Below are positions 1-63,186 of a stretch of 64,000 nt of DNA, piece after piece. Within the stretch, counting starts at the first letter, position 1. Each line of letters opens with the position of its first letter. The stretch comes from Flavobacterium psychrophilum DSM 3660 = ATCC 49418 (GTDB lineage: Bacteria > Bacteroidota > Bacteroidia > Flavobacteriales > Flavobacteriaceae). A program made the translations under genes and the position numbers. Location of the stretch: positions 1 through 64,000 of the forward strand of contig NZ_MUHE01000005.1 of the NCBI RefSeq assembly GCF_002217405.1. Direction: 5' to 3'. Below the pieces are notes generated by a model. The model saw only the letters and a list, made by a program, of their open reading frames with translations. It had not been told where the DNA came from and ran no database searches.

Positions 1-60
1 ATCTCATAATTTGAATAACTTGATGAGATTCCTCGTTCCTCGGAATGACAAACTGTATGT
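1..60. repeat. Half-copy of the 57-58 kb palindromic repeat, plus AT-rich spacer
   Basis: Positions 26-52 read GATTCCTCGTTCCTCGGAAT followed by GACAAAC. This is a diverged single arm of the palindromic repeat found in many copies at 57.0-58.0 kb. No gene is visible between the window edge and the mfd stop codon at 119. The copy lies downstream of mfd. Confidence 0.6.
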
Positions 61-118
61 TTTTTTTATCCCAGTAATTTTAAACTTTAAATGGTATTAT
101 ATTGGTTTTTAATAGTTT

Positions 119-3100
119 TTATACCATCTCCATGAGTTCTAGCGCTTTTTTGATGCTTTTTACATTTTCGAAAGTTAACAACAACCTCAATCCATTTTTG
201 GTTTCTTTTTCTTTCATTTTGCACAATTGCGGTTGTTTTTGTACAAATTGTAATACTTGATGAAAACGTTTCGATTGGTAATAATCACTTTGTTGGTCTG
301 ATACAAAATAACAAACCATTTTGCCTTGTTTGAGGATTAATTTTTCGACTCCAATTTGGGTAGCAATCCATTTTATTCGCAAGCTATTTAGCAAAGCAAT
401 AGCTTGTTTTGGTAAAGGTCCAAAACGATCTATGAGTTGTTTTTCGTATTCTAACAAACCATTTTCTTCTTTTATAATGGCTAAAGCATTATACAAAGCC
501 AAACGTTCGGTCACGCTGTTTATGTAATCATCTGGAAACAACAATTCGAAATCAGAATCAATCTGTAAATCTTTTACATATTCTTTTTCTACTGTTTCAT
601 TGTCGTTTTCATACAAATCTTTAAATTCATTTTCTTTAAGTTCTTCAATGGCTTCGTTCATGATTTTCTGATAAGTATCAAAACCTATTTCGTTTATAAA
701 GCCACTTTGCTCGCCACCTAATAAATCGCCTGCACCACGAATTTCAAGATCTTTCATAGCAATATTTAAACCACTTCCTAGTTCCGAAAATTGTTCTAAG
801 GCTTGAATTCGTTTTCGAGCGTCTTCAGTCATCACAGAATATGGCGGACAAATAAAATAGCAAAAAGCTTTTTTATTACTTCGACCCACTCGTCCTCGCA
901 TTTGATGCAAATCGGATAATCCAAAATTATTGGCATTGTTAATAAAAATCGTATTCGCATTGGGAACATCTAATCCGCTTTCGATAATGGTTGTAGCGAC
1001 CAGAACATCAAATTCGCCTTCCATAAAAGCGAGCATGAGTTCTTCGAGTTTCTTGCCATCCATTTGTCCGTGACCAATTCCTACTTTGGCATCAGGAACC
1101 AATCGCTGAATCATGCCAGCAACTTCCTTAATGTTTTCTATTCTATTATTAATAAAAAATACTTGTCCGCCACGTTCAATTTCGAACGAAATAGCATCAC
1201 GAATCGTTTCTTCATTAAAACCAACCACATGGGTTTCGATAGGATAACGATTGGGCGGCGGTGTTGTAATGACCGATAAATCTCTGGCTGCCATGAGCGA
1301 AAACTGTAAAGTTCTCGGAATTGGAGTTGCTGTAAGTGTTAATGTATCTACGTTTTGGGTAATGGTTTTGAGTTTGTCTTTTACATTAACCCCAAATTTT
1401 TGTTCTTCATCTACAATAAGTAATCCTAAATCTTTAAAAATTACATTTTTGCTTACCAATTGATGCGTTCCTATAACAATATCTACTTTTCCAGCTTCTA
1501 AATCTTTGAGTGTTTCAGCTTTTTGCTTGGCGGTTTTAAATCTGTTGAGGTAATTTATAGTAACAGGCATGTCTTTTAACCTTTCGGTAAATGTGCGATA
1601 ATGTTGGTATGCCAAAATTGTAGTTGGAACTAAAATAGCGACTTGTTTTCCGTTGTCAACTGCTTTAAATGCAGCTCGAATAGCGACTTCTGTTTTCCCG
1701 AAACCTACATCGCCACAAACCAACCTGTCCATTGGGCGATCACTTTCCATGTCGGCTTTTACTTCTTGTGTCGATTTTAACTGGTCTGGTGTGTCTTCAT
1801 AAATAAACGAACTTTCTAGCTCGTGTTGCAAATAACTATCGGGCGCAAATGCAAATCCTTTGTCTAATCTGCGTTTGGCATACAATTGAATTAAGTTGAA
1901 AGCAATATGTTTTACTCGGGCTTTTGTTTTTTGTTTTAAAGCTTTCCAAGCGCCAGAACCTAATTTGTAAATTTTGGGTGGGGCGCCATCTTTACCTGTA
2001 TATTTTGATATTTTGTGTAGCGAATGAATGCTTACATATACAATATCATTATCAGCATACGCTAGTTTTATTGCTTCTTGTGTTTTGCCTTCAACTTGTA
2101 TTTTTTGCAGTCCACCAAATTTTCCAATTCCGTGATCAATATGTGTTACATAATCGCCAACTACCAGTGAAGTTAGTTCTTTGAGCGTGATGGTTTGTTT
2201 TTTAGAATACCCGTTTTTGATGCTAAATTTATGATAGCGTTCAAAAATTTGGTGGTCGGTATAACACGCAATTTGGTTTTCTTCATCAATAAAACCTTGA
2301 TACAATGGCAAAACAATTGTTTCGTATTGTTTGGTTATTGTTTCGTGATTTTGCTCATCAAGACTCTCAAAAATATCATGAAAACGTTTGGCTTGTTGTT
2401 CGTTCGAACAAAATAAATAATTTTTGTAATTGTGTGCTTGGTTGTCTTTCAAATTATTTAATAACAAATCGAATTGCTTATTGAAGGAGGGTTGTGGTTT
2501 GATATGAAATTCGAAAGTTTCTGAGGTTCTAAAAGTAGGTTTTGAAGCCGTTTCGACCACACAAAAATTTAAGGCTTGCTTAATAAACTCTTTCTGATTT
2601 AGAAACAATTGTTCGGGCAAAGCGTGTTTGACATCTTTATTTAACTTCTCGAAAGTTTCTTCGGCTTTGCTAAATAATTTGTCTAATTGTGTTAATAATA
2701 AATCGGTATTTTGAATAAAAATAGTTGTTTTAGCATTGATATATTCTAGGAAACTTTCTCTGTTTTCTTGTAAAAATTTATTTTCGAAATTAGGAATAAT
2801 CGCAATTTTATTTTTCTTTTCGATTGATAGTTGTGTGGCCACATCGAAAGTTCGAATACTATCTACTTCGTTACCAAAGAACTCGATTCGATACGGATTA
2901 TCGTTCGAAAAAGAAAATACATCTAAAATGCCACCACGAACAGAAAACTCACCGGGTTCTGTAATAAAATCGACTCTTTTAAATTCGTATTCGAATAAAA
3001 CTTCATTAATAAAATCGATAGAAACCAAATCGCCAACCGAAATTTTGAGTGTGTTTTTATCTAATTCCTTCTTGGTTACCACTTTCTCGAAAATAGCTTC

Positions 3101-3472
3101 TGGATAAGAAACAATAATGGCTGGTTTTTTGCGAGAATTGAGTCTGTTTAAAACTTCCGACCGAAGCAAAACATTTGCATTATCTGTATCTTCAATTTGA
3201 TACGGTCTTCGGTAAGAACTTGGGTAAAACAACACATCTTGGTCGCTAACGAGTTGTTCTAAATCGTTCAGGATATAAGCGGCTTCTTCTTTTTCGTTAC
3301 ACAATAATAGAAAAGAATTTTCACTTTTTGCAAACAACGCTTCAATGACAAACGAAAATGACGAACCAACCAATCCTTTAATATGAATTTTGTTATCGCC
3401 TTTAATTGTTTTTAATAGATTAACAATTTTCGCTTGTTCGCTGTATTTCTTAGAGATGATTTTTGTGCTCAA
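119..3472 (-). CDS. mfd: Transcription-repair coupling factor Mfd
   Basis: This is an ATP-dependent DNA translocase that removes RNA polymerase stalled at lesions and recruits UvrA. At 1117 residues it is about the usual length for the family. Visible in order: an N-terminal UvrB-like module (about 1-400); the RNA-polymerase-interacting domain beginning GDYVTHIDHGIGKFGG (about residue 440); helicase motif I GDVGFGKTEVA (about 590); a DEEQ box (about 690); TATPIPRTL; motif VI QMRGRVGRS; and a C-terminal TRCF domain near DFELLFPDDY (about 975). The next gene upstream is divergent, so mfd is probably transcribed alone. Confidence 0.97.
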   Translation of the reverse strand: MSTKIISKKYSEQAKIVNLLKTIKGDNKIHIKGLVGSSFSFVIEALFAKSENSFLLLCNEKEEAAYILNDLEQLVSDQDVLFYPSSYRRPYQIEDTDNANVLLRSEVLNRLNSRKKPAIIVSYPEAIFEKVVTKKELDKNTLKISVGDLVSIDFINEVLFEYEFKRVDFITEPGEFSVRGGILDVFSFSNDNPYRIEFFGNEVDSIRTFDVATQLSIEKKNKIAIIPNFENKFLQENRESFLEYINAKTTIFIQNTDLLLTQLDKLFSKAEETFEKLNKDVKHALPEQLFLNQKEFIKQALNFCVVETASKPTFRTSETFEFHIKPQPSFNKQFDLLLNNLKDNQAHNYKNYLFCSNEQQAKRFHDIFESLDEQNHETITKQYETIVLPLYQGFIDEENQIACYTDHQIFERYHKFSIKNGYSKKQTITLKELTSLVVGDYVTHIDHGIGKFGGLQKIQVEGKTQEAIKLAYADNDIVYVSIHSLHKISKYTGKDGAPPKIYKLGSGAWKALKQKTKARVKHIAFNLIQLYAKRRLDKGFAFAPDSYLQHELESSFIYEDTPDQLKSTQEVKADMESDRPMDRLVCGDVGFGKTEVAIRAAFKAVDNGKQVAILVPTTILAYQHYRTFTERLKDMPVTINYLNRFKTAKQKAETLKDLEAGKVDIVIGTHQLVSKNVIFKDLGLLIVDEEQKFGVNVKDKLKTITQNVDTLTLTATPIPRTLQFSLMAARDLSVITTPPPNRYPIETHVVGFNEETIRDAISFEIERGGQVFFINNRIENIKEVAGMIQRLVPDAKVGIGHGQMDGKKLEELMLAFMEGEFDVLVATTIIESGLDVPNANTIFINNANNFGLSDLHQMRGRVGRSNKKAFCYFICPPYSVMTEDARKRIQALEQFSELGSGLNIAMKDLEIRGAGDLLGGEQSGFINEIGFDTYQKIMNEAIEELKENEFKDLYENDNETVEKEYVKDLQIDSDFELLFPDDYINSVTERLALYNALAIIKEENGLLEYEKQLIDRFGPLPKQAIALLNSLRIKWIATQIGVEKLILKQGKMVCYFVSDQQSDYYQSKRFHQVLQFVQKQPQLCKMKEKETKNGLRLLLTFENVKSIKKALELMEMV

Positions 3473-3539
3473 TGGGAATTATTTTATGCAAATATACTTT
3501 GATTTTTTTAATACAAATTTGTATCGTGTAAGTTTTAAA

Positions 3540-3566
3540 TTTGTCCTGTTTTTTTGTTTATATTTG
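3540..3566 (+). promoter_or_regulatory. Possible Bacteroidota promoter for the 3588 gene
   Basis: The box TATATTTG (3559-3566) matches the TAnnTTTG -7 consensus. It lies about 22 nt before the ATG at 3588. TTTG at 3540-3543 could be the -33 element, but its 15-nt spacer is shorter than usual. Confidence 0.4.
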
Positions 3567-3587
3567 CGTTGAACTAAAAAACAAAAA

Positions 3588-4013
3588 ATGTACGATTTTA
3601 TTCAGAAATTTCACTCAGGCTGGGCATATTTTGCCTTATTACTTTTATTTTTAGCTTTTGCGAACAGTGCTTTGGGGTTCTTTTCTAAAAGAGAGTTTAC
3701 CACAAAAGACAAAAAAATCGCATTATTTGCGCTTATAGTAACACACTTGCAACTTACCGTAGGATTTGTGTTGTATTTTCTTTCGCCTTTAGGTTTCTCA
3801 GTTTTTGGAGAGATGAAAAATGCTGCTTTGAGACTCACTTCGTTAGAGCATCCGCTGGTTAATGTTATAGCAATTACTCTAATTACAATTGGTTGGTCTA
3901 AACACAAAAAGGGATTAGAGAGCAAAACGAAATTTAAAAGTATTGCCGTATTTTATGGTTTGGGGTTATTATTGGTGTTAAGTAGAATTCCTTGGTCATT
4001 ATGGTTTAAATAA
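3588..4013 (+). CDS. Four-helix membrane protein, cytochrome-b-like
   Basis: A 141-residue integral membrane protein with four hydrophobic segments, at about residues 12-32, 45-67, 88-103 and 118-138. Histidines lie in or beside the helices (FHSGW near residue 9, VTHLQL near 52, EHPLVN near 87). This layout suggests possible heme or quinone binding, and similar Bacteroidota proteins are sometimes labelled cytochrome B. No catalytic motif is visible, so the function is an inference. It is a single gene between the divergent mfd and the RlpA-like gene, and a weak terminator follows at 4017-4048. Confidence 0.75.
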   Translation: MYDFIQKFHSGWAYFALLLLFLAFANSALGFFSKREFTTKDKKIALFALIVTHLQLTVGFVLYFLSPLGFSVFGEMKNAALRLTSLEHPLVNVIAITLITIGWSKHKKGLESKTKFKSIAVFYGLGLLLVLSRIPWSLWFK

Positions 4014-4016
4014 TTT

Positions 4017-4048
4017 AAAAAAGTCTTATTTGTTAAGGCTTTTTTTGT
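4017..4048 (+). terminator. Intrinsic terminator after the 3588 gene
   Basis: An imperfect stem AAAAAGTCTTA / TAAGGCTTTTT, including G-T pairs, runs into a T-tract directly after the stop codon at 4013. Confidence 0.6.
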
Positions 4049-4097
4049 TTTTGGGTATAGTATTTGAGAAGTGTGTAATAATAATTAAATTAAAATT

Positions 4098-4619
4098 ATG
4101 ATAAAAGATAAATTTTTTTTGGTAATTACCACAACAATAGCAGTAATATTAATTTCTAGTTTTTCGTTTAAGAAATTCGACAAGCAATCTTTTTCTATAA
4201 GCCTCGTTAAGGATACCGTAAGGGTCGATACGGTAGCAATAGACAGTCTGCTTGTAGAAGGTAATTTTACCTATAAATTATACAAAAAGAAAGCTCACGC
4301 ATCGTATTATGCTAAAAAATTTCACGGTAGGCGTACTGCAAGTGGCGTTCGTTTTGATAATAACAAACTTACCGCAGCCCATAAAAAATTCCCTTTTGGA
4401 ACAAGGCTTCGTATAACAAATGAGCATAACGGAAAACATGTTATAGTCACAGTAACCGATCGTGGCCCTTTTGTAAAAGGTCGAGAAATTGATTTGTCTC
4501 GTAGGGCTTACATGGAAATGGCTTCTAATAAAAATGGAGGCGCAACATTAGTAACAATCGAAGTGATGAATAAAAAAAGGTTTTCTTACCAACTCCCGAA
4601 AGGATTGTTGTTTAAATAA
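4098..4619 (+). CDS. Septal ring lytic transglycosylase RlpA family protein
   Basis: A 173-residue exported protein with an N-terminal hydrophobic segment (residues 8-25) and a C-terminal double-psi beta-barrel. Family signatures include ASYYAKKFHGRRTASGVRF, the segment AHKKFPFGTRLRI, and TDRGPFVKGREIDLSRRA, which holds the catalytic-type aspartate. RlpA proteins cleave peptidoglycan glycan strands or bind denuded glycans during separation. There is no SPOR domain, so this is a short form. Its last 34 bases overlap the 3' end of the convergent CYTH gene. Confidence 0.9.
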   Translation: MIKDKFFLVITTTIAVILISSFSFKKFDKQSFSISLVKDTVRVDTVAIDSLLVEGNFTYKLYKKKAHASYYAKKFHGRRTASGVRFDNNKLTAAHKKFPFGTRLRITNEHNGKHVIVTVTDRGPFVKGREIDLSRRAYMEMASNKNGGATLVTIEVMNKKRFSYQLPKGLLFK

Positions 4620-56641: not shown

Positions 56642-56968
56642 TTACTTTAGTTTTTCATTATTATGATGGCGGTCGTGATCCCGATTTGTTTTTAGATCTA
56701 ATTTCTTGTCGAAAGCAGCTTGCAGATCTATTCCTGTTTGGTTGGCTAAACACAAAACTACAAAAACCACATCGGCAAGTTCTTCGCCTAAATCTTTGTT
56801 TTTGTCGGATTCTTTTTCAGATTGTTCGCCATAACGGCGGGCAATAATACGGGCTACTTCGCCTACTTCTTCGGTAAGTTGTGCCATATTTGTGAGTTCG
56901 TTAAAATACCGAACACCGTGGTTTTTTATCCAATTATCTACTTCGAGTTGGGCGTTTTTTAGGTTCAT
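56642..56968 (-). CDS. MazG-like nucleotide pyrophosphohydrolase
   Basis: A 108-residue all-helical protein. The MazG metal-binding pattern appears as EEVGEVARIIARRYGEQ followed by DLGEELADVVFVVLCLANQ (EExxE ... ExxD). Such enzymes hydrolyse (d)NTPs to monophosphates, often as house-cleaning. It lies upstream of aroA by 44 nt on the same strand, possibly one transcript. Its 5' flank is the start of the palindromic repeat region. Confidence 0.9.
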   Translation of the reverse strand: MNLKNAQLEVDNWIKNHGVRYFNELTNMAQLTEEVGEVARIIARRYGEQSEKESDKNKDLGEELADVVFVVLCLANQTGIDLQAAFDKKLDLKTNRDHDRHHNNEKLK

Positions 56969-57008: not shown

Positions 57009-57090
57009 ATGTGATTCCTCCTGCGTCGGAATGACAAACGGTGTGTGTTGTTCTGTTTTTTTTGTCATTCCGACGCAGGAGGAATCACAT
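57009..57090. repeat. Perfect palindromic repeat (30-bp arms)
   Basis: The left arm 57009-57038 and right arm 57061-57090 are exact reverse complements (ATGTGATTCCTCCTGCGTCG... ), with a 22-nt GT/T-rich loop. It is the most intact unit of the family in this region. Confidence 0.93.
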
Positions 57091-57116
57091 CATCATCTTT
57101 TATTTTATTAGTATTG

Positions 57117-57195
57117 TGTGATTCCTCCTGCTTCGGAACGGCAAACTGTGTGTTGTTTCATTTTTTGTCATTCAGACACAGGCGGAATCGCATTA
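57117..57195. repeat. Diverged palindromic repeat overlapping the GIY-YIG 3' end
   Basis: The left arm (57117-57146) and right arm (57164-57192) are mutated copies of the unit at 57009. The right arm encodes the last residues and stop of the GIY-YIG gene (IPPVSE then TGA at 57168-57170). Confidence 0.85.
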
Positions 57196-57527
57196 TTCTT
57201 TACGAATCTATCATTTAAAAACTCAAAATTGTTATTAAAAGATTTAATCAAATCTAACTTTTTTTCTCTTCGCCAACCCTTAAGTTCTTTTTCTCTCGCG
57301 ATTGCAAGTTGTATCCAAGTAAATTTTTCGTAATAAACTAAAAACTCAATATTATATTTAGACGCAAAAGTTTTAATTCCTTTTTCAATATTTTCTTTGT
57401 GTTGCTGTAATCTGATGCTTAAATTATTGGTAACTCCAATATAATAAGTTGACCTATATTTATTTGTAATGATATAAACATAATATATATGACTTCCTTC
57501 GTTATATTCAATCATTGTATTGTTCAT
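57168..57527 (-). CDS. GIY-YIG nuclease family protein
   Basis: A 119-residue single-domain protein started at the ATG at 57527 (MNNTMIEYNEGSHIYYVYII); the ATG at 57515 is also possible. GIY-YIG motifs are YYVYIITN, TYYIGVTNNLSIRLQQHK with the catalytic-type Arg, and a later Glu in IAREKELKGWRREKK. These small UvrC-N-like proteins are frequent and poorly understood in Bacteroidota. The reading frame upstream to 57695 is repeat DNA and not part of the gene. Both flanks are palindromic repeats, and the C-terminal tail and stop lie inside one arm. Confidence 0.88.
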   Translation of the reverse strand: MNNTMIEYNEGSHIYYVYIITNKYRSTYYIGVTNNLSIRLQQHKENIEKGIKTFASKYNIEFLVYYEKFTWIQLAIAREKELKGWRREKKLDLIKSFNNNFEFLNDRFVKNNAIPPVSE

Positions 57528-58058
57528 TTTATATCTATTTATTGTCAATACTTGTTGTGTTTCCTCCTGCGTTGGAAAGACAAAGTTTGTGTTTTGTTCT
57601 GTTTTTTTTGTCATTCCGACGCAGGAGGAATCGCATAGTTTATTTTTACTTTGTGTGACGCACTTTATGTGTTTCCTCCTGCGTTCGAAAGACAAATTTT
57701 GCGTTTTGTTTTGGGTTTACTTGATGTGATTCCTCCTTCGTCGGAATGACAAAATACCTCGGAAAGACAAATTTTGCGTTTTGTTTCGTTTTTTTTGTCA
57801 TTCCGACGCAGGAGGAATCGCATAGTTTATTTTTACTTTGTGTGACGCACTTTATGTGATTCCTCCTTCGTCGGAATGACAAAAACACCTCGGAAAGACA
57901 AATTTTGCGTTTTGTTTTGGGTTTACTTGATGTGATTCCTCCTTCGTCGGAATGACAAAAATACCTCGGAATGACAAATTTTGCGTTTTGTTTCGTTTTT
58001 TTTGTCATTCCGACGCAGGAGGAATCGCATTATCCTTTACGAATCTATTATTTAAAAA
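57528..58058. repeat. Array of palindromic repeats with about 200-bp tandem units
   Basis: No gene. Forward arms occur near 57557, 57668, 57724, 57853 and 57929, and reverse arms at 57610, 57797 and 58004. The block 57610-57796 (187 bp) is repeated as 57797-58003 (207 bp, with about 20 extra bases). A third block starts at 58004 and runs into a GIY-YIG-tail fragment. Reading frames across the array code for arm translations such as CDSSCVGMTKK and are not genes. Confidence 0.9.
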
Positions 58059-58241
58059 CTAAAAATTATCATTTTCAATATTTAGAGTGTTATAAATTGG
58101 ATTATGTTCTTTCATAACCTCAAAAATATTCTTATACCCTGTATTTACTCCTAAAGAATAATTAAAACCATTACCTAATAATAGATGATTTTCTGTATTT
58201 TCAATTTCAGATAACATTTCCGAATACTTTACTAAACTCAT
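58004..58241 (-). pseudogene. Truncated GNGF-motif gene fused to a GIY-YIG 3' tail
   Basis: From the ATG at 58241 the frame gives 60 residues (MSLVKYSEMLSEIENTENHL then LLGNGFNYSLGVNTGYKNIF). GNGFN-x-S-LG resembles the nucleotide-binding start of AbiH/DUF4917/SIR2-like proteins of 300 or more residues, so only the N-terminus remains. After the TAG at 58059 the same frame reads FLNNRFVKDNAIPPASE and TGA. This matches the tail FLNDRFVKNNAIPPVSE of the GIY-YIG gene at 57168, with GAG (Glu) changed to TAG. It looks like an in-frame chimera formed by repeat-mediated insertion or deletion. Confidence 0.75.
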
Positions 58242-58356
58242 ATTTGTTTTTTTAAATTTTCTATTACTAAATTGTCGTTAAACAGTTACTAAAATTCGAT
58301 TACCACAACCAATTGCTTAAAAGTTGTCTTATCAATTCGGTTTTTATCTTTATTAA
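58242..58356. other. Intergenic region within the defence locus
   Basis: 115 nt, AT-rich, between the small membrane gene and the truncated gene. AACTGTTTAACGACAATT is present. No gene, promoter or terminator is evident. Confidence 0.4.
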
Positions 58357-58494
58357 TTATATCAATAATTTAAACACTACAAAAGCAATTAACAATAGTA
58401 ATGCAACATCATAAATTGAAAATTCAAATTCAAATGTGTAATCCACTTCTTTTTCGTAAAATTTTTTAAAAAACTTAATAATTCCTTTAATCAT
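58357..58494 (-). CDS. 45-residue single-helix membrane protein
   Basis: Translating from the ATG at 58494 gives MIKGIIKFFKKFYEKEVDYT, then FEFEFSIYDVALLLLIAFVV and FKLLI, stop TAA at 58357-58359. It has an N-terminal basic amphipathic part, an acidic centre and one TM helix (about 30-45). It starts 20 nt after the AbiH stop on the same strand, as expected for a small partner gene. No family is recognised. The reading frame alone is short, so this is a proposal. Confidence 0.5.
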   Translation of the reverse strand: MIKGIIKFFKKFYEKEVDYTFEFEFSIYDVALLLLIAFVVFKLLI

Positions 58495-58514
58495 AATCTT
58501 ATATTTTAAATTAT

Positions 58515-59507
58515 TTAATTCATACTAAAAAAACCTGTATTCACTCCAACATAAATATTGTTTTTAATTTTTTCTTTTTCCTCGTTAGAAAGGCTAGATA
58601 GTAGAGAAATGAATTTATTTTTTATTTTCTTTATTTCTTTTGTAACTGAATTTTCAAATAGTTTGTTTTCTGAATGAATATTTGGATTGTAATGGTATAT
58701 TATCATTTGACTATTATCTTCAAGAATTTTTTTAGCAATTAATTCCCACCAAAATTTATCCGTTTCTCCTAATGAACTTCCAAAAACACATATAATGCCA
58801 GCTTTATTAATTAACTTAATACACTCATCATCAACCAAATGACTACAAGACTTATTATATTCTGATTTTACAAAAGATTCAATAAAATCTTCATCATTTA
58901 TAAAATTAGAATTAGTTACTTGCGATATGTCATTTACACCAATAATCATTCTTTCGTCTAATGTGCCATGAATATGTTTTACATTTTTTACTATTGAATA
59001 ACTATTTATTGCTTGATTAACGCTCATTTTTTTTTCAACAGATTCTTCAATTAATTTATCAAGTGTTGAAGTATAATTTAACGAAATAAAATCAATTTCA
59101 GCTAATTCATGTTTAATAGGAGTCAATAAATTTTTAAAAAATTCTTTTTCCCCATTTCTTAATTTTATAAAAGGTGAGCAAATATCAGTAATAAGTTCAT
59201 GTTTGTTTGCTTTAGAAAAATCAAATAATTCTTCTTGTCCTTTTAAATATTTAGATAAGTTTGATATAATGTCTTGTCTTATTTCTTCAAACTCAATTGA
59301 AGTATTAATCTTTTCTGTATGTTTCCCTAATGCTATTTCTAAATCAGACCAGCTTTCTATATTTCCTTTTATTTCTTTTTTCAATTTTTCAATATTATCA
59401 TTCGGAGATTTTTCCAAACAATAATGATTTTCATAGAAATTTTTATAACTCGTTTTCATTCCTAGATTTAAATCAAATCCGTTCCCTATTAAATAAACTA
59501 TATTCAT
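58515..59507 (-). CDS. AbiH family abortive infection protein
   Basis: The 330-residue protein begins MNIVYLIGNGFDLNLGMKTS, the IGNGFDL signature of the AbiH family (phage abortive infection, PF14253). Later family-like features are WSDLEIALG, EIDFISLNYTSTLD, KHIHGTLDERMIIGVND and ICVFGSSLGETDKFWWE. The GNGFD loop suggests nucleotide binding, but the mechanism is not established. It starts 12 nt after the restriction-modification gene stop, so both are one operon. Confidence 0.9.
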   Translation of the reverse strand: MNIVYLIGNGFDLNLGMKTSYKNFYENHYCLEKSPNDNIEKLKKEIKGNIESWSDLEIALGKHTEKINTSIEFEEIRQDIISNLSKYLKGQEELFDFSKANKHELITDICSPFIKLRNGEKEFFKNLLTPIKHELAEIDFISLNYTSTLDKLIEESVEKKMSVNQAINSYSIVKNVKHIHGTLDERMIIGVNDISQVTNSNFINDEDFIESFVKSEYNKSCSHLVDDECIKLINKAGIICVFGSSLGETDKFWWELIAKKILEDNSQMIIYHYNPNIHSENKLFENSVTKEIKKIKNKFISLLSSLSNEEKEKIKNNIYVGVNTGFFSMN

Positions 59508-59519
59508 ATTCTTACTCTT

Positions 59520-62500
59520 TTAACTATTCTCAACAATTTCAATTTCCTCTTCACTCAATCCATACAACTCATACACCATGGCATCAATTTGTTTGTCTGT
59601 GGCTGTTATTTGGTTTTTTGTGGCAATGGCTTGTTTTTGGTAGGTTTCAAAATACTCTTGTACTTCATCTTTTTGTATTGCCGATAGTACAATTTTTGCT
59701 TTTGCCAATTCTTTAAAAAAATCTTGTACCGTTAGCTCGTACCAAATTTCTAGCTTTTTAGTGGGTTTTGTTAAACCACAATCTCTTTGCAACATATTGA
59801 CAACTTTGGCTTGTTGCTGTTGTAAGGTTTTATTTAGGGTAAGCATAAGGTCTGCTTTTTCTATGAAGGGTTGTTGTTTTTCAGTATTCACAACACTAAT
59901 TGGTAACTTAAATAATTGAATTGGTTTAACTTCAGGAAAAACTCTATTTTCTTCATTTACTAAATCCTTATATAAGAAATCCATTAAAGAGGAATTTAAA
60001 ATAGTAAGTAGGTAATTATAACTAATTTTAGAATCAGTTGATAATTGAATAATAATACCACTTTTTAAACAATACCATTGTTCGGTATCATAAGAAGCAA
60101 TAATTCTATCAGCTGTCTGTCTTATAAGAATTTTAGGGTTATCAAATAATTTTTGTCTTCTCGGTCTTAACATTACATACCAAGGAATTACTCCGTTTTT
60201 TGTTTCAACTCTATTATCTAATTTGTCTTTATATTGTGATAAATAATTTAAAATATTAGGAAAATCTTTAATGTCAAGTTTAGACGAAAAATAAATAATT
60301 TTTTTATTAGAAAAAGGTGTTAAATTATATCTGTTTATTTCTCCTCCGATAATTAATTTTTTTAAAATATTATCTTCTAAATTATTATCAATTGCTAATT
60401 TAGAATCTAAAACAAAAGCTTCTCCTAAACCTGGACTAATTCCTGTCGCTACATCTTCAACAATCTCCTTTAAAATAGACTTATTCTTATAACATTTTTT
60501 TATAAGATTACTATTCGTTTTAAAATTGAAACTAAAAGATTGATTTGCTAATAAGCTTTCATTGGTAATTAAAATTGAAGAATTATTAATTTCTAATGGC
60601 AACAATTTTCTGTCAACTTTAGTAAAGTCAAAATATGAAATTTCGACATTTATTTTCTCTTTATACAATGTTATAATACAAGTTGGAGTTGCAACGTCTG
60701 AAAAAATATTGTCACCTAAATTAAGAATTGTACATACTGAATGTTCTTCTAAAATTAATTTTCTTGTCTTTTCAAATTCGATTTGATTTAAAAAACTTGA
60801 TGGTATTATAAACGAACATATTCCTTTATCAATATTTATCTCAACAATTTGCTTGATAAAATAATTAAATGATTCAGGTGTTCTAACGTGAATTTCAGAA
60901 AATTTCGTTCTCAAATAATCCTTTTCGATGGTGCTAAAACTTGCACCATAAGGCGGATTACCGATAATCACATCAAAACCACCTTTTGCAAATACTTTTT
61001 CAAAGCTTTGTTGCCAATTAAAAGCTTTGTCGCCAGCAATTTTAGGGTCGTCAATTAATGAGTTGCCACATTGTATATTACTGCTTAAATCGTTTAGTTT
61101 TCGGTTGGGTTGTGCGGTGCGTAACCAAAGTGAAAGTTTTGCAATTTCTACACTTTCTTCGTTTAAATCTACTCCAAAAAGGTTGTTTTCTAAAATGCTA
61201 TTTTCTACATCGCTCAACACAAAAGTATCGCCAAATAATTTGGCTTTTAGCTCGTCTATATATTGGTGTTGGGCAATAAGAAAATCTAAGGCTTGGTTCA
61301 GGAACGCACCACTACCGCAAGCTGGGTCGCAAATGGTGAGTTGCAAGAGCCAACTTCTGTAGGTTTCTACTTTATCAATTAAAGCTTGTAAGGTTTTCTT
61401 TTGTCGTTTTTTATCGGTTGTGTAATCTTCATCTACTAATTGTAATTCGGTTTTCTTTTCTTGGCACAACTTACCAATGGTGTTTTCTACAATGTATTTG
61501 GTAATGTATTTTGGGGTGTAAAAAACGCCGTCTTTTTTGCGTTTGGTTTTGGTTTTGTCTATACTTTCGCCTTCTAATTGTGCTTTTATTTCGTCTAACT
61601 CGTTTAACGAATTTTCGAAAATATGTCCTAAAATATTTACATCGACCTCGCTGGCAAAGTCGTAATTACTTAAATTTTCGGTATGTTTAAATAAAACAGC
61701 ATCGTCAATTTTAATATGGTCTAAAATAGCATCGGCTTTAAACAATCCGCCATTGTAGGCAAAAATTTGATGTTCTTCCACAACGTTTGAAGTCGTTTGC
61801 GAAAAGGCTGGTAATTGTACTTTGGCACCAGAATTTAAATCGTTAAAATATATTTTGTATCTATCATACAAAGACACTTCAATACGCATAGTGCGTAAGT
61901 TTTGCCATTCTTTATTAATGCGGAAAATTAAATTGGTGGGTAATAAGTTTCGGTCTTCGGCAAAGAAAATAAATAAAAAACGATCTAATAATTTTTGCGA
62001 TTTTTTAAAGAGTTCAATGGGTTCATATTGTGGGTTTAAAGCCACTAAATTTTGATATAATTCTCGTTTAAAAAGCGAATAATCTTTATATAATTTTTTG
62101 GTAATAACGTCTTCTTGGCTTACCGATTCGTCTTTTATGGTTTTTGCAATGCCTTTAGAAAGGTTATCGTAAGCCAAACATAAATACAATAATTCGAATT
62201 CGGTTTTTGTGAGTTGAAACAAATTGAACTCTAAAAACTCGATGGCATTGTCTATATAAAATCGGATTTTTTCAAAGTTAGAAGTAATTACATACACGCA
62301 ATCGGGTTGGTTGTTTTTGTAACCAAACGCTTGTGTTTCAATCTTTCCTAAATCGGTTGTATTGGTGCCTTTTAATTCTATTACTGCTATTACTTTGTCG
62401 TTTATAATAATGGCACCGTCGGCTTTTTTGCTGTCTTTTACGTTTTTATATTCGGTAGTAAGATTAAATTTTGTTTCGGTAGAAGAGGCTGGCTTAGTGT

Positions 62501-62690
62501 AGCCTAATATTTTAACAAACAAGTCTTCTAAAAATTCGCCTTGGTATTGTTCTTCTTTTAAACCTTTAATGTCTTCCTGAACTTTAAGGTTTAGGAAATG
62601 GTTTTTATAAGCTTCCCATTTTTGTACAAGCAAAGTTGCGTTTTGGTTTTTTAAGTATTTAGATACTACTGAATTTTGAAATAATGACAT
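59520..62690 (-). CDS. Type IIG restriction-modification enzyme (Eco57I-like)
   Basis: A 1056-residue single-chain enzyme. The N-terminal PD-(D/E)xK nuclease has KADGAIIINDKVIAVIELKG (catalytic D and ExK near 90-108). A helical linker follows, then a gamma-class N6-adenine methyltransferase with motif I DPACGSGAFL (about 460), NLFGVDLNEESVEIAKLSLW and motif IV NPPYG (about 576). A C-terminal target-recognition region (about 740-950) ends in a helical tail. All core motifs are intact, so it is probably active. It needs no separate methylase or specificity gene. It is followed by AbiH at 12 nt. Confidence 0.94.
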   Translation of the reverse strand: MSLFQNSVVSKYLKNQNATLLVQKWEAYKNHFLNLKVQEDIKGLKEEQYQGEFLEDLFVKILGYTKPASSTETKFNLTTEYKNVKDSKKADGAIIINDKVIAVIELKGTNTTDLGKIETQAFGYKNNQPDCVYVITSNFEKIRFYIDNAIEFLEFNLFQLTKTEFELLYLCLAYDNLSKGIAKTIKDESVSQEDVITKKLYKDYSLFKRELYQNLVALNPQYEPIELFKKSQKLLDRFLFIFFAEDRNLLPTNLIFRINKEWQNLRTMRIEVSLYDRYKIYFNDLNSGAKVQLPAFSQTTSNVVEEHQIFAYNGGLFKADAILDHIKIDDAVLFKHTENLSNYDFASEVDVNILGHIFENSLNELDEIKAQLEGESIDKTKTKRKKDGVFYTPKYITKYIVENTIGKLCQEKKTELQLVDEDYTTDKKRQKKTLQALIDKVETYRSWLLQLTICDPACGSGAFLNQALDFLIAQHQYIDELKAKLFGDTFVLSDVENSILENNLFGVDLNEESVEIAKLSLWLRTAQPNRKLNDLSSNIQCGNSLIDDPKIAGDKAFNWQQSFEKVFAKGGFDVIIGNPPYGASFSTIEKDYLRTKFSEIHVRTPESFNYFIKQIVEINIDKGICSFIIPSSFLNQIEFEKTRKLILEEHSVCTILNLGDNIFSDVATPTCIITLYKEKINVEISYFDFTKVDRKLLPLEINNSSILITNESLLANQSFSFNFKTNSNLIKKCYKNKSILKEIVEDVATGISPGLGEAFVLDSKLAIDNNLEDNILKKLIIGGEINRYNLTPFSNKKIIYFSSKLDIKDFPNILNYLSQYKDKLDNRVETKNGVIPWYVMLRPRRQKLFDNPKILIRQTADRIIASYDTEQWYCLKSGIIIQLSTDSKISYNYLLTILNSSLMDFLYKDLVNEENRVFPEVKPIQLFKLPISVVNTEKQQPFIEKADLMLTLNKTLQQQQAKVVNMLQRDCGLTKPTKKLEIWYELTVQDFFKELAKAKIVLSAIQKDEVQEYFETYQKQAIATKNQITATDKQIDAMVYELYGLSEEEIEIVENS

Positions 62691-62733: not shown

Positions 62734-63186
62734 TTACTCTTTATTTTTACTGTCTATAATTATAGTTACTGGTCCGTCATTTATTAAAGAAACTTTCATA
62801 TCTGCTCCAAAAATACCTGTTTGTACTTTTTTACCTAATTCAGTTTCTAATTGCGAAACGAAACTTTGGTATAACGGAATGGCAATTTCTGGTTTCGATG
62901 CTTTGATGTAACTGGGTCGGTTTCCTTTTTTGGTCAGCGCCTGAAGTGTAAATTGAGAAACGACAATGATTTCGCCGTTTATATCTTTTGCCGAAAGGTT
63001 CATTACTTCATTTTTATCCTCAAAAATGCGAAGATTGATTATTTTTGAGGATAACCAATTAATGTCTTCTTGATTGTCTGAATCTTCAATACCTACAAGA
63101 ATTAATAAGCCTTTTTGAATTTTAGCTACTATTTTAGAATCGATTGTTACCGATGCTTGAGAAACTCTTTGAATGACTACTTTCAA
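62734..63186 (-). CDS. dtd: D-aminoacyl-tRNA deacylase
   Basis: Removes D-amino acids (and Gly) mischarged on tRNA. The 150-residue protein starts MKVVIQRVSQASVTIDSKIV. It has the catalytic-pocket signature SQFTLQALTKKGNRPSY and the C-terminal GPVTI (Gly-cisPro type). It lies 43 nt upstream of the restriction-modification gene on the same strand and downstream of rsgA. It may be where the defence operon was inserted. Confidence 0.96.
   Translation of the reverse strand: MKVVIQRVSQASVTIDSKIVAKIQKGLLILVGIEDSDNQEDINWLSSKIINLRIFEDKNEVMNLSAKDINGEIIVVSQFTLQALTKKGNRPSYIKASKPEIAIPLYQSFVSQLETELGKKVQTGIFGADMKVSLINDGPVTIIIDSKNKE

Follow-up and report, generated by a model that had tools for sequence, protein, structure and literature searches.

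We analyzed a 64,000-nucleotide stretch of Flavobacterium psychrophilum DSM 3660 = ATCC 49418 (contig NZ_MUHE01000005.1, positions 1 to 64,000; hereafter, the window), in which a small gene for a GIY-YIG nuclease lies among arms of a tagged palindromic repeat, the gene and its arms together spanning positions 57009-58073. The pairing of GIY-YIG genes with tagged palindromes is real and widespread. By analogy with repetitive extragenic palindromic (REP) sequences and their REP-associated tyrosine transposases (RAYTs), we consider it probable (roughly 0.6) that the GIY-YIG protein and the tagged palindromes surrounding it form one system of the REP-RAYT kind, built around an unrelated nuclease. 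One repeat family has been reported to have no enzyme partner, a role for which this nuclease is a candidate, and from the same analogy we infer that it may bind, cut and spread the repeats. An initial annotation of the window had already drawn the REP/RAYT comparison, which gains strength from the matching of repeat types to gene types, from co-occurrence at the genome level and from sites in relatives where gene and repeats are both missing. No paper on a GIY-YIG/REP pairing was among the matches listed in open-access PubMed Central, searched without bioRxiv, and earlier work elsewhere is possible.

Association of GIY-YIG Genes with Tagged Palindromes

Tagged palindromes were located with a strict finder (GTCAT tag; at least two G/C in the stem in the 80-locus and density counts) and a relaxed finder (GTCA tag; two or more G/C required in one run on loci of Y1 transposases). 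For the 30 top Bacteroidota PF01541 loci and the first count in a plasmid collection, the GTCAT finder required at least one G/C in the stem. The 80 loci are the best 80 of 343 related places in a scan of genome contigs; they represent the close clade, and belong to Flavobacteriaceae where titles tell. With the relaxed finder, a GTCA palindrome lies within 350 bp of 77 of the 80 related genes, compared to 35 of 406 control intervals displaced by 2.5-4.5 kb. The strict finder detected a GTCAT palindrome within 600 bp in 48 of the 80 loci, and the density of such palindromes was 2.78 per kb within 200 bp of the gene versus 20 in 684 kb at a distance of 1-6 kb. Control patterns with altered tags gave numbers near zero around the related genes. 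The initial annotation had staked its model on an enrichment of GIY-YIG genes beside the repeat; because they are strongly enriched next to such repeats, in Flavobacteriaceae and in other phyla, the model passes this point.

The plasmid collection yielded 33 records with a match, and 16 loci were examined. A GTCAT palindrome is present within 600 bp in 11 of them, and the relaxed finder matches 14 within 400 bp, of which 13 were counted (L157, with a lone unit and an AGTC tag, was left out by judgement). The paired loci come from alpha-, beta- and gammaproteobacteria, the cyanobacterium Planktothrix and Spirosoma. In 8 of the 13, a tag-outward repeat is present on each side of the gene (L146-L151, L155 and L159; the downstream repeat of L146 has one extra base and was read by eye), and in rhizobial and Sphingobium loci, 45-48 bp separate the start of the upstream repeat from the gene (346 bp in L151). 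A phage collection gave no match.

We also measured repeat nests, using the 95th percentile of controls as the threshold; the 20 control stretches, 19 of which lie 18-20 kb away on the same contig, all had values of about 0.06 or less. Excluding 11 of the 80 close-clade loci located less than 750 bp from a contig end, the threshold was exceeded in 53 of 69 close-clade loci and in 16 of 20 loci of a second clade.

This second, more distant Flavobacterium GIY-YIG clade (L187, L189, L205, L132, L204) often lies within arrays of different GTC-tagged palindromes, such as GTCAGGCTGAGCGGAGTCGAAG, GTCAGACTGAGCTTGTCGAAGTC and GTCACGTCGAGCGCAGTCGAGA.

Structure and Class of the Repeat

The window palindrome, GTCATTCCGACG[CA]AGGAGGAATC (as a unit read from its tag, TGTCATTCCGACG[CA]AGGAGGAATC), belongs with the CGTC/TGTC-tagged REPs, the superfamily of Di Nocera et al. 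2013, with a stem that is shorter than published. The window genome (2.64 Mb) contains 44 arms at up to 3 mismatches, and 8 of its 10 exact arms are at the GIY-YIG locus. All eight exact window arms are tagged TGTC, and most units in Pseudomonadota are tagged CGTC or TGTC. The stem starts with AT (ATTCC...GGAAT in the window), as do most units near the genes, although the finder required GTCA and the A is therefore built in. Thus, the C or T before the GTC tag and the AT-first palindrome are shared with the CGTC-REPs, including dRS3 of Neisseria, as are dimers with tags outside, a mostly intergenic location and an occurrence in several phyla, as far as these are described in the available parts of the survey (PMC3733652). 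The Flavobacterium repeat differs from that description in that its GTC tag is followed by a stem of 5 bp, two G.A/A.G positions and one pair, the triloop usually being GNA. Instead of the published stem of 8-9 bp with a loop of 4-5, it has mostly a 9-base interior, and its stem reaches 8 positions only when both G.A positions are counted as paired; in the plasmid-collection loci, stems seem longer by eye. The three-base tail is mostly CAC, CTC or CGC in Flavobacteriaceae and not CCA, which is present in at least one unit of 9 of the 11 Pseudomonadota loci with units.

For the analysis of covariation, units were gathered with the stem unconstrained, to avoid circularity. Of the 65 distinct units, 51 have fully complementary stem triplets (mean of shuffles 12.0, maximum 22) and 57 have a Watson-Crick inner closing pair (mean of shuffles 28, maximum 39), and a GNA triloop is found in 48. 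Of the palindromes near related genes, 233/259 have GA at both interior ends. The covariation of stems in units collected in this way therefore suggests that the hairpin itself is selected or copied as such. A lone 25-base arm, folded as single-stranded DNA, has no unusual stability (z -0.63) under standard parameters, which are possibly poor for G.A pairs.

A chance or low-complexity artefact could in principle mimic such an association, as AT-rich DNA yields some spurious short palindromes, and 35 of the 406 displaced intervals have a match under the relaxed definition. However, the reversed arm pattern had no match in the window genome at up to 3 mismatches, altered tags gave next to nothing and the stems covary; we rejected this explanation on these grounds, and it has practically no chance of being correct.

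Tag-outward pairs of about 70 bp are scattered in the window genome and in its relatives, other repeats being single, and many of the scattered repeats form regular pairs about 45 or about 75 bp apart. Dimers with the tags outside are named HH in the survey, in the sections at hand (PMC3733652). In the window genome, similar flanks (aaaaatactggaatattta...) surround repeat pairs at L248, L250, L254, L255, L256 and L258, several of which are at contig ends; the flanks enclose two repeat types, TTCCGAGG and TTCTGACG, as if these had been swapped in place within a longer multi-copy element.

Matching of Repeat and Nuclease Types

In the Flavobacteriaceae set, the type of a repeat was defined as its 5-base stem, ignoring loop differences. 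From 129 loci, 2 near-identical rows of the same genome were removed (a step that would also conceal identical paralogues), and 105 of the remaining 127 loci were typed by a palindrome within 350 bp, whereas the 22 loci without a near palindrome received no label. In 64 of the 105, the stem type is also that of the nearest GIY-YIG relative in another genome (mean fraction after shuffling 0.223; as high in none of 5000 shuffles). Phylogeny is controlled for in these statistics by the within-genome shuffle of labels only, which included 26 loci in 10 genomes: 18 of the 26 match, and 1 of 20000 shuffles was as high. Paralogues of the same genome have a common repeat type in 4 of 25 pairs, and the agreement of types between genomes is 3% where the proteins are less than 50% identical and climbs to 73% where they are at least 80% identical.

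Two types were searched exactly in seven genomes. That of the gene in genome G514 has 32 copies in G514 (7 of them at the gene) and 3 in G516, where all lie at the GIY-YIG gene; that of the G513 gene has 35 copies in G513 and a single one in G516. In each case, the other five genomes have none. As is typical of RAYTs, the gene is flanked by REPs of its own type, though the enzyme differs. Because the types of repeat and gene match, it is likely that the enzyme recognizes its repeat.

Co-Occurrence at the Genome Level

We compared 121 genomes of the genus, taking GIY-YIG matches with E<1e-30 as close. The 71 genomes with a close GIY-YIG have a median of 13 repeats (at least 4 repeats in 54), the 25 with distant GIY-YIG only have a median of 2 (at least 4 in 8), and the 25 without GIY-YIG have a median of 1 (at least 4 in 5). 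The difference in repeat number between genomes with close GIY-YIG and the rest is significant (p=9e-9), and the partial rank correlation given genome size is 0.44 (p=6e-7). In the reverse direction, clusters of at least 3 arms with gaps of up to 1 kb were counted from typed positions, by script, in 14 genomes whose arms were listed in full (10 genomes plus G512, G514, G515 and G517, with G511, G513 and G516 left out). Among the 13 clusters, at least 6 have a GIY-YIG gene inside, and the largest cluster holds one in at least 6 of the 8 genomes that have clusters.

The repeats could also be moved by another enzyme, a RAYT or some other transposase, with the GIY-YIG gene as a common accessory neighbor or a tolerant target. 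RAYTs are described as duplicating REPINs in the part of PMC8049555 at hand, and the window locus, with its AbiH and restriction-like genes, forms an island as well. However, a search of the window genome at E 0.001 gave no Y1 transposase match, and 18 Y1 loci from seven other genomes, analyzed with the relaxed finder, contain 1 lone palindrome within 350 bp, with 4 loci having any palindrome in the locus, none of them of these REP types. The near absence of palindromes from Y1 loci argues against RAYTs and, in addition, provides a control, in that mobility of a gene family is by itself not enough to attract these repeats. The RAYT as the mover was rejected on the absent Y1 match and these palindrome counts. 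Furthermore, the repeat type follows the GIY-YIG gene, and no tyrosine transposase gene flanked by CGTC repeats was reported for the species listed by Di Nocera et al., in the sections at hand (PMC3733652). A foreign mover is very unlikely.

In three genomes without a close GIY-YIG, G450, G489 and G493, there are 15, 27 and 142 repeat units, respectively, which may be relics or belong to another enzyme.

Gain and Loss at Syntenic Sites

The initial annotation had called for a comparison of related strains at the corresponding sites, and two syntenic sites were found where relatives lack both the gene and the repeats. The first is the window site itself, between mazG-like and dtd-like genes. 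These two genes overlap in the relative G405 and are about 220 bp apart in G403, whereas about 5.7 kb separate them in the window, with the repeats and the GIY-YIG gene at the mazG edge, followed by AbiH and a 1056-aa restriction-like protein. Among 30 mazG loci (window included), a GIY-YIG gene is located upstream only in the window and in G410; separately, L035 also has the gene. No palindrome was found at 25 of the 28 other mazG loci, and L295 and L307 have one chance-like palindrome each. It should be noted that L317 has no upstream sequence, L314 has only 465 bp of it, and dtd was checked as the next gene in a minority of loci. The second site is in Azospirillum lipoferum, where repeats, gene and repeats separate sufB from sufC with a gap of 617 bp; by eye, the gene and tagged repeats are absent from the sufB-sufC junction in A. 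ramasamyi, A. oryzae, sp. B510 and A. thermophilum.

A third comparison is that of Sinorhizobium K101, whose site contains a palindrome tagged at both ends (left tag CCTC) and one degenerate repeat nearby. In S. meliloti Ak57, the outer half of the left repeat and the outer half of the right repeat together equal this double-tagged palindrome. In this comparison, the records C101 and M103 have identical match statistics. Double-tagged palindromes at or beside GIY-YIG sites (L144, about 41-70 bp 3' of the gene; L180, about 1158-1190) may be a joint or an empty-site product.

These observations bear on the alternative of a homing-type element, in which the GIY-YIG gene and its bordering repeats are mobile together, existing palindromes are the landing sites and scattered repeats are solo ends left after loss of the gene. 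Such an element would account for the K101 palindrome and for the tag-outward repeats of several rhizobial and Sphingobium loci, which lie 45-48 bp ahead of the gene and 9-35 bp behind it; near-identical tandem gene copies in some Bacteroidota, and the fact that GIY-YIG is a known homing-endonuclease fold, point in the same direction. On the other hand, many scattered repeats are regular pairs, though others are single, and paralogues within one Flavobacterium genome are mostly diverged, with 1 of 25 typed pairs at 80% identity or more. We regard the homing-type element as unlikely, although it is the most serious competitor of a REP-RAYT-like system.

The Enzyme

The GIY-YIG protein looks intact, judging from its conserved residues. 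Across 38 homologues, 15 columns do not vary, among them Y29, G31, R39, E79 and N98, the residues expected of a working GIY-YIG enzyme, and the PF01541 domain with conserved Y, YIG, R, E and N places the protein in the GIY-YIG superfamily. PF01541 is the sole Pfam match on the protein, with no separate DNA-binding domain. The predicted local distance difference test score (pLDDT) of the predicted structure is 85.8. The nearest solved structures to this model are UPF0213 (1zg2), followed by Slx1, none of them below E 0.001, and sequence profiles agree in giving UPF0213 and Slx1 as the best matches of solved structure.

The same small GIY-YIG fold is found in UPF0213 (1zg2, 1ywl), E. coli YhbQ, presumably a member of UPF0213, and eukaryotic Slx1, although the E-values of the fold matches are weak. 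YhbQ differs from the window protein in that, by eye, it does not have the REKELKGWRREKK...FEFL part found in the window clade. YhbQ is grouped with Slx1 in a review, in the part at hand (PMC7017083). The window protein shares its nuclease domain, and a weak structural match (1ln0), with homing endonucleases of the I-TevI type, but it differs from them in having no separate DNA-binding domain detectable by Pfam and in scoring 20.2 against the NCBIfam group I intron endonuclease model, below the cut-off of 56.05.

The kinship with UPF0213 and with the branched-DNA nuclease Slx1 also fits a housekeeping or self-regulatory role, in which the nuclease trims, resolves or binds hairpins (cruciform safety, autoregulation), with replication slippage or another enzyme spreading the repeats. 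The repeats are close around the gene and could control its expression, and the arrays at the locus appear locally amplified. However, this role alone does not explain that the type scattered in the genome is the type beside the gene, or that relatives lack both, and we consider it rather unlikely, more so than the homing-type element.

Comparison with Known Repeat Systems

REP-RAYT and REPIN systems are reportedly the subject of Nunvar 2010 and of Bertels and Rainey 2011. To our knowledge, GIY-YIG enzymes form no covalent tyrosine link, and any chemistry of spreading must therefore differ from that of a RAYT. The two systems are alike, as far as REP-RAYT/REPIN systems are covered by the accounts at hand, in the tagged palindromes beside a low-copy nuclease gene, in the higher number of repeats in genomes with the gene and in the scattered tag-outward pairs of about 70-100 bp. 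They differ in the enzyme, a RAYT being an HUH-tyrosine enzyme of the IS200/IS605 kind and the window protein a GIY-YIG protein. No HUH motif, catalytic tyrosine or Y1 domain was found, PF01541 being the only domain on the protein, and the window genome has no PF01797 match; the window protein is not a RAYT because this defining domain is absent. GIY-YIG gene copies occur on large plasmids, whereas RAYT genes are said to be unseen there, in the part of PMC8049555 at hand. In its anatomy, the window system works like a RAYT system.

According to the available sections of Di Nocera et al. 2013 (PMC3733652), CGTC-tagged REPs occur in five phyla and apparently have no dedicated transposase, their mover being left to future work. 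The intragenic set of that survey excluded repeats in hypothetical proteins of less than 120 aa, and genes of the present size may therefore have been passed over. The survey mentions REP-decorated excinuclease ABC proteins, which may include such GIY-YIG genes, because one Sphingobium copy is annotated as 'excinuclease ABC subunit C'. It also equates CGTC-1 in Neisseriae with dRS3, and the N. gonorrhoeae locus L152 contains CGTCATTCCC repeats.

Evidence Against and a Proposed Mechanism

Several observations weigh against a REP-RAYT-like system. Six genomes have 10 or more repeats without a close GIY-YIG, two of them (G450 and G489) without any match; under the strict pattern, 11 genomes have one repeat or none despite a close GIY-YIG, and 7 of the 13 clusters are without GIY-YIG among the matches listed. 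L035, the positional counterpart of the window with an 86% identical protein, has a different repeat type; types can therefore also change in concert at one site. L289, a mazG relative without GIY-YIG, has two arms about 950 bp upstream. Exact insertion edges and target duplication were looked for at the compared sites and none were found; in Azospirillum and Shinella, the edges are unreadable because the flanks are too diverged. In Flavobacteriaceae, the nearest arm is tag-outward in 30/63 cases upstream and 41/68 downstream, and a simple two-ended element is therefore not the rule there, arrays being common. The nest threshold is exceeded by 9 of the 16 plasmid-collection loci. A GTCAT match of any kind is present in 6 of the 30 top Bacteroidota PF01541 loci, 3 of these being plausible, and 13 of the 30 are above the nest threshold; among 20 further Bacteroidota loci, 9 have any GTCA match, about 5 of them plausible by judgement. 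The association is thus patchy across Bacteroidota, and E. coli yhbQ has no tagged palindromes alongside.

A uniform tag-outward border in Flavobacterium was rejected on the nearest-arm counts.

If the enzyme and the repeats do form one system, the GTC tag and the short hairpin would serve as the recognition signal. The repeat might be extruded as single-stranded hairpin or cruciform DNA, and the Slx1/UPF0213-like nuclease would cut at the tagged end or close to it. Through repair or re-joining, tag-outward pairs of about 70-100 bp would then be copied or moved to further intergenic sites, and on occasion the GIY-YIG gene might be copied or lost along with its bordering repeats. The enzyme gene would stay at low copy number, persisting with its own repeat type, whereas the repeats would be the multiplying population.

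A broader claim, to which we give slightly less than even odds, is that a free-standing GIY-YIG nuclease of about 95-120 aa would recognize and multiply tagged hairpins without a tyrosine, serine or DDE transposase, and would characterize a widespread class of mobile DNA in bacteria. This nuclease would be the unrecognized partner of the CGTC-REPs, including dRS3 and the rhizobial and flavobacterial repeats, in at least three phyla, with gene and repeat types co-diverging like lock and key (type matching was tested in Flavobacteriaceae). If this is true, a fold of homing, repair and branched-DNA cutting would take on a transposition-like role serving repeat elements of very compact size, and an owner would be assigned to repeats that range from Neisseria to rhizobia. 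The matched nuclease makes the question of what moves CGTC-REPs directly testable.

The Window Locus

The picture of the window locus drawn in the initial annotation holds down to its details (Table 1). The gene is bracketed by a single palindromic repeat with 12 arms, 7 forward and 5 reverse, over 57014-58025, which equals the number given there. Eight arms match ATTCCTCCTNCGTCGGAATGACA exactly, 3 have up to 3 mismatches and 1 is further degenerate. The first arm pair folds much better than its shuffled versions (z -13.7). The gene has an alternative in-frame TTG start at 57695, and the longer frame would run through a repeat. The window genome has three PF01541 matches, of which this gene is the only one in a short frame, the others being in frames of 616 and 462 aa.

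Table 1. Features of the GIY-YIG/repeat locus and of its flanks in the window. The strand of an arm is the strand on which GTCAT reads.
Feature	Position	Strand	Remarks
mazG-like gene	56642-56968	-	left flank of the site
First arm pair	57009-57090	.	30-bp inverted repeat, arms 100% complementary, GTC tags inward
REP arm	57014-57036	-	exact
REP arm	57063-57085	+	exact
REP arm	57121-57143	-	3 mismatches
REP arm	57166-57188	+	3 mismatches; contains GIY-YIG stop codon and last codons (IPPVSE)
Small GIY-YIG nuclease gene	57168-57527	-	119 aa; first residues MNNTMIEY; PF01541 E=1.2e-15
REP arm	57560-57582	-	3 mismatches
REP arm	57609-57631	+	exact
REP arm	57672-57694	-	degenerate (repeat families D1 and I21)
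REP arm	57729-57751	-	exact
REP arm	57796-57818	+	exact
REP arm	57859-57881	-	exact
REP arm	57935-57957	-	exact
Truncated second unit (arm + copy of GIY-YIG 3' end)	57998-58073	-	89% identity to 57161-57236 (family D4)
REP arm	58003-58025	+	exact
AbiH-like gene	58515-59507	-	same inserted stretch; neighbor, outside the repeat system
dtd-like gene	62737-63003	-	right flank of the site; directly adjoins mazG in relative G405

The location of the GIY-YIG stop codon and IPPVSE residues inside a repeat arm was borne out, the arm being degenerate, and the second arm near 58004, said to be joined to a copy of the gene tail, is truly present together with that copy, because the unit is 89% identical to the gene end. 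The tail is not restricted to this locus: with the strict finder, the stop codon lies inside an arm in 5 of the 80 related loci (L034, L036, L037, L038, L054), and a truncated unit of arm and gene tail is also seen, by eye, in Sinorhizobium meliloti. The proposal that the repeat and the gene tail travel together therefore stands for a subclade (those 5 loci) and for truncated tandem copies; as a general rule, a gene ending in a repeat was rejected, given the same 5 of 80.

The stretch 57009-62690 has the GIY-YIG/repeat nest as its mazG-side edge and also contains AbiH and the 1056-aa restriction-like protein. We take the gene on its right flank to be dtd, a name that, like rsgA, was assigned by reading of the sequence. 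In Planktothrix (L145), a GIY-YIG copy lies between an MmeI-like enzyme and DISARM drmA; nests of this kind might be markers of defence islands.

Tandem GIY-YIG Units

Tandem GIY-YIG units were seen at two further loci: five units spaced at 450 bp in L160 (positions 1-4501; G236:C1:119000-123500) and three at 317 bp in L161 (positions 1-2701; G132:C1:1733000-1735700). By eye, each unit has the 3' part of a tRNA-like gene, split by an untagged palindrome, e.g., CCTGCCTGCCGTCAGGCAGG; these units are possibly a second element of palindrome and GIY-YIG gene that targets tRNA genes.

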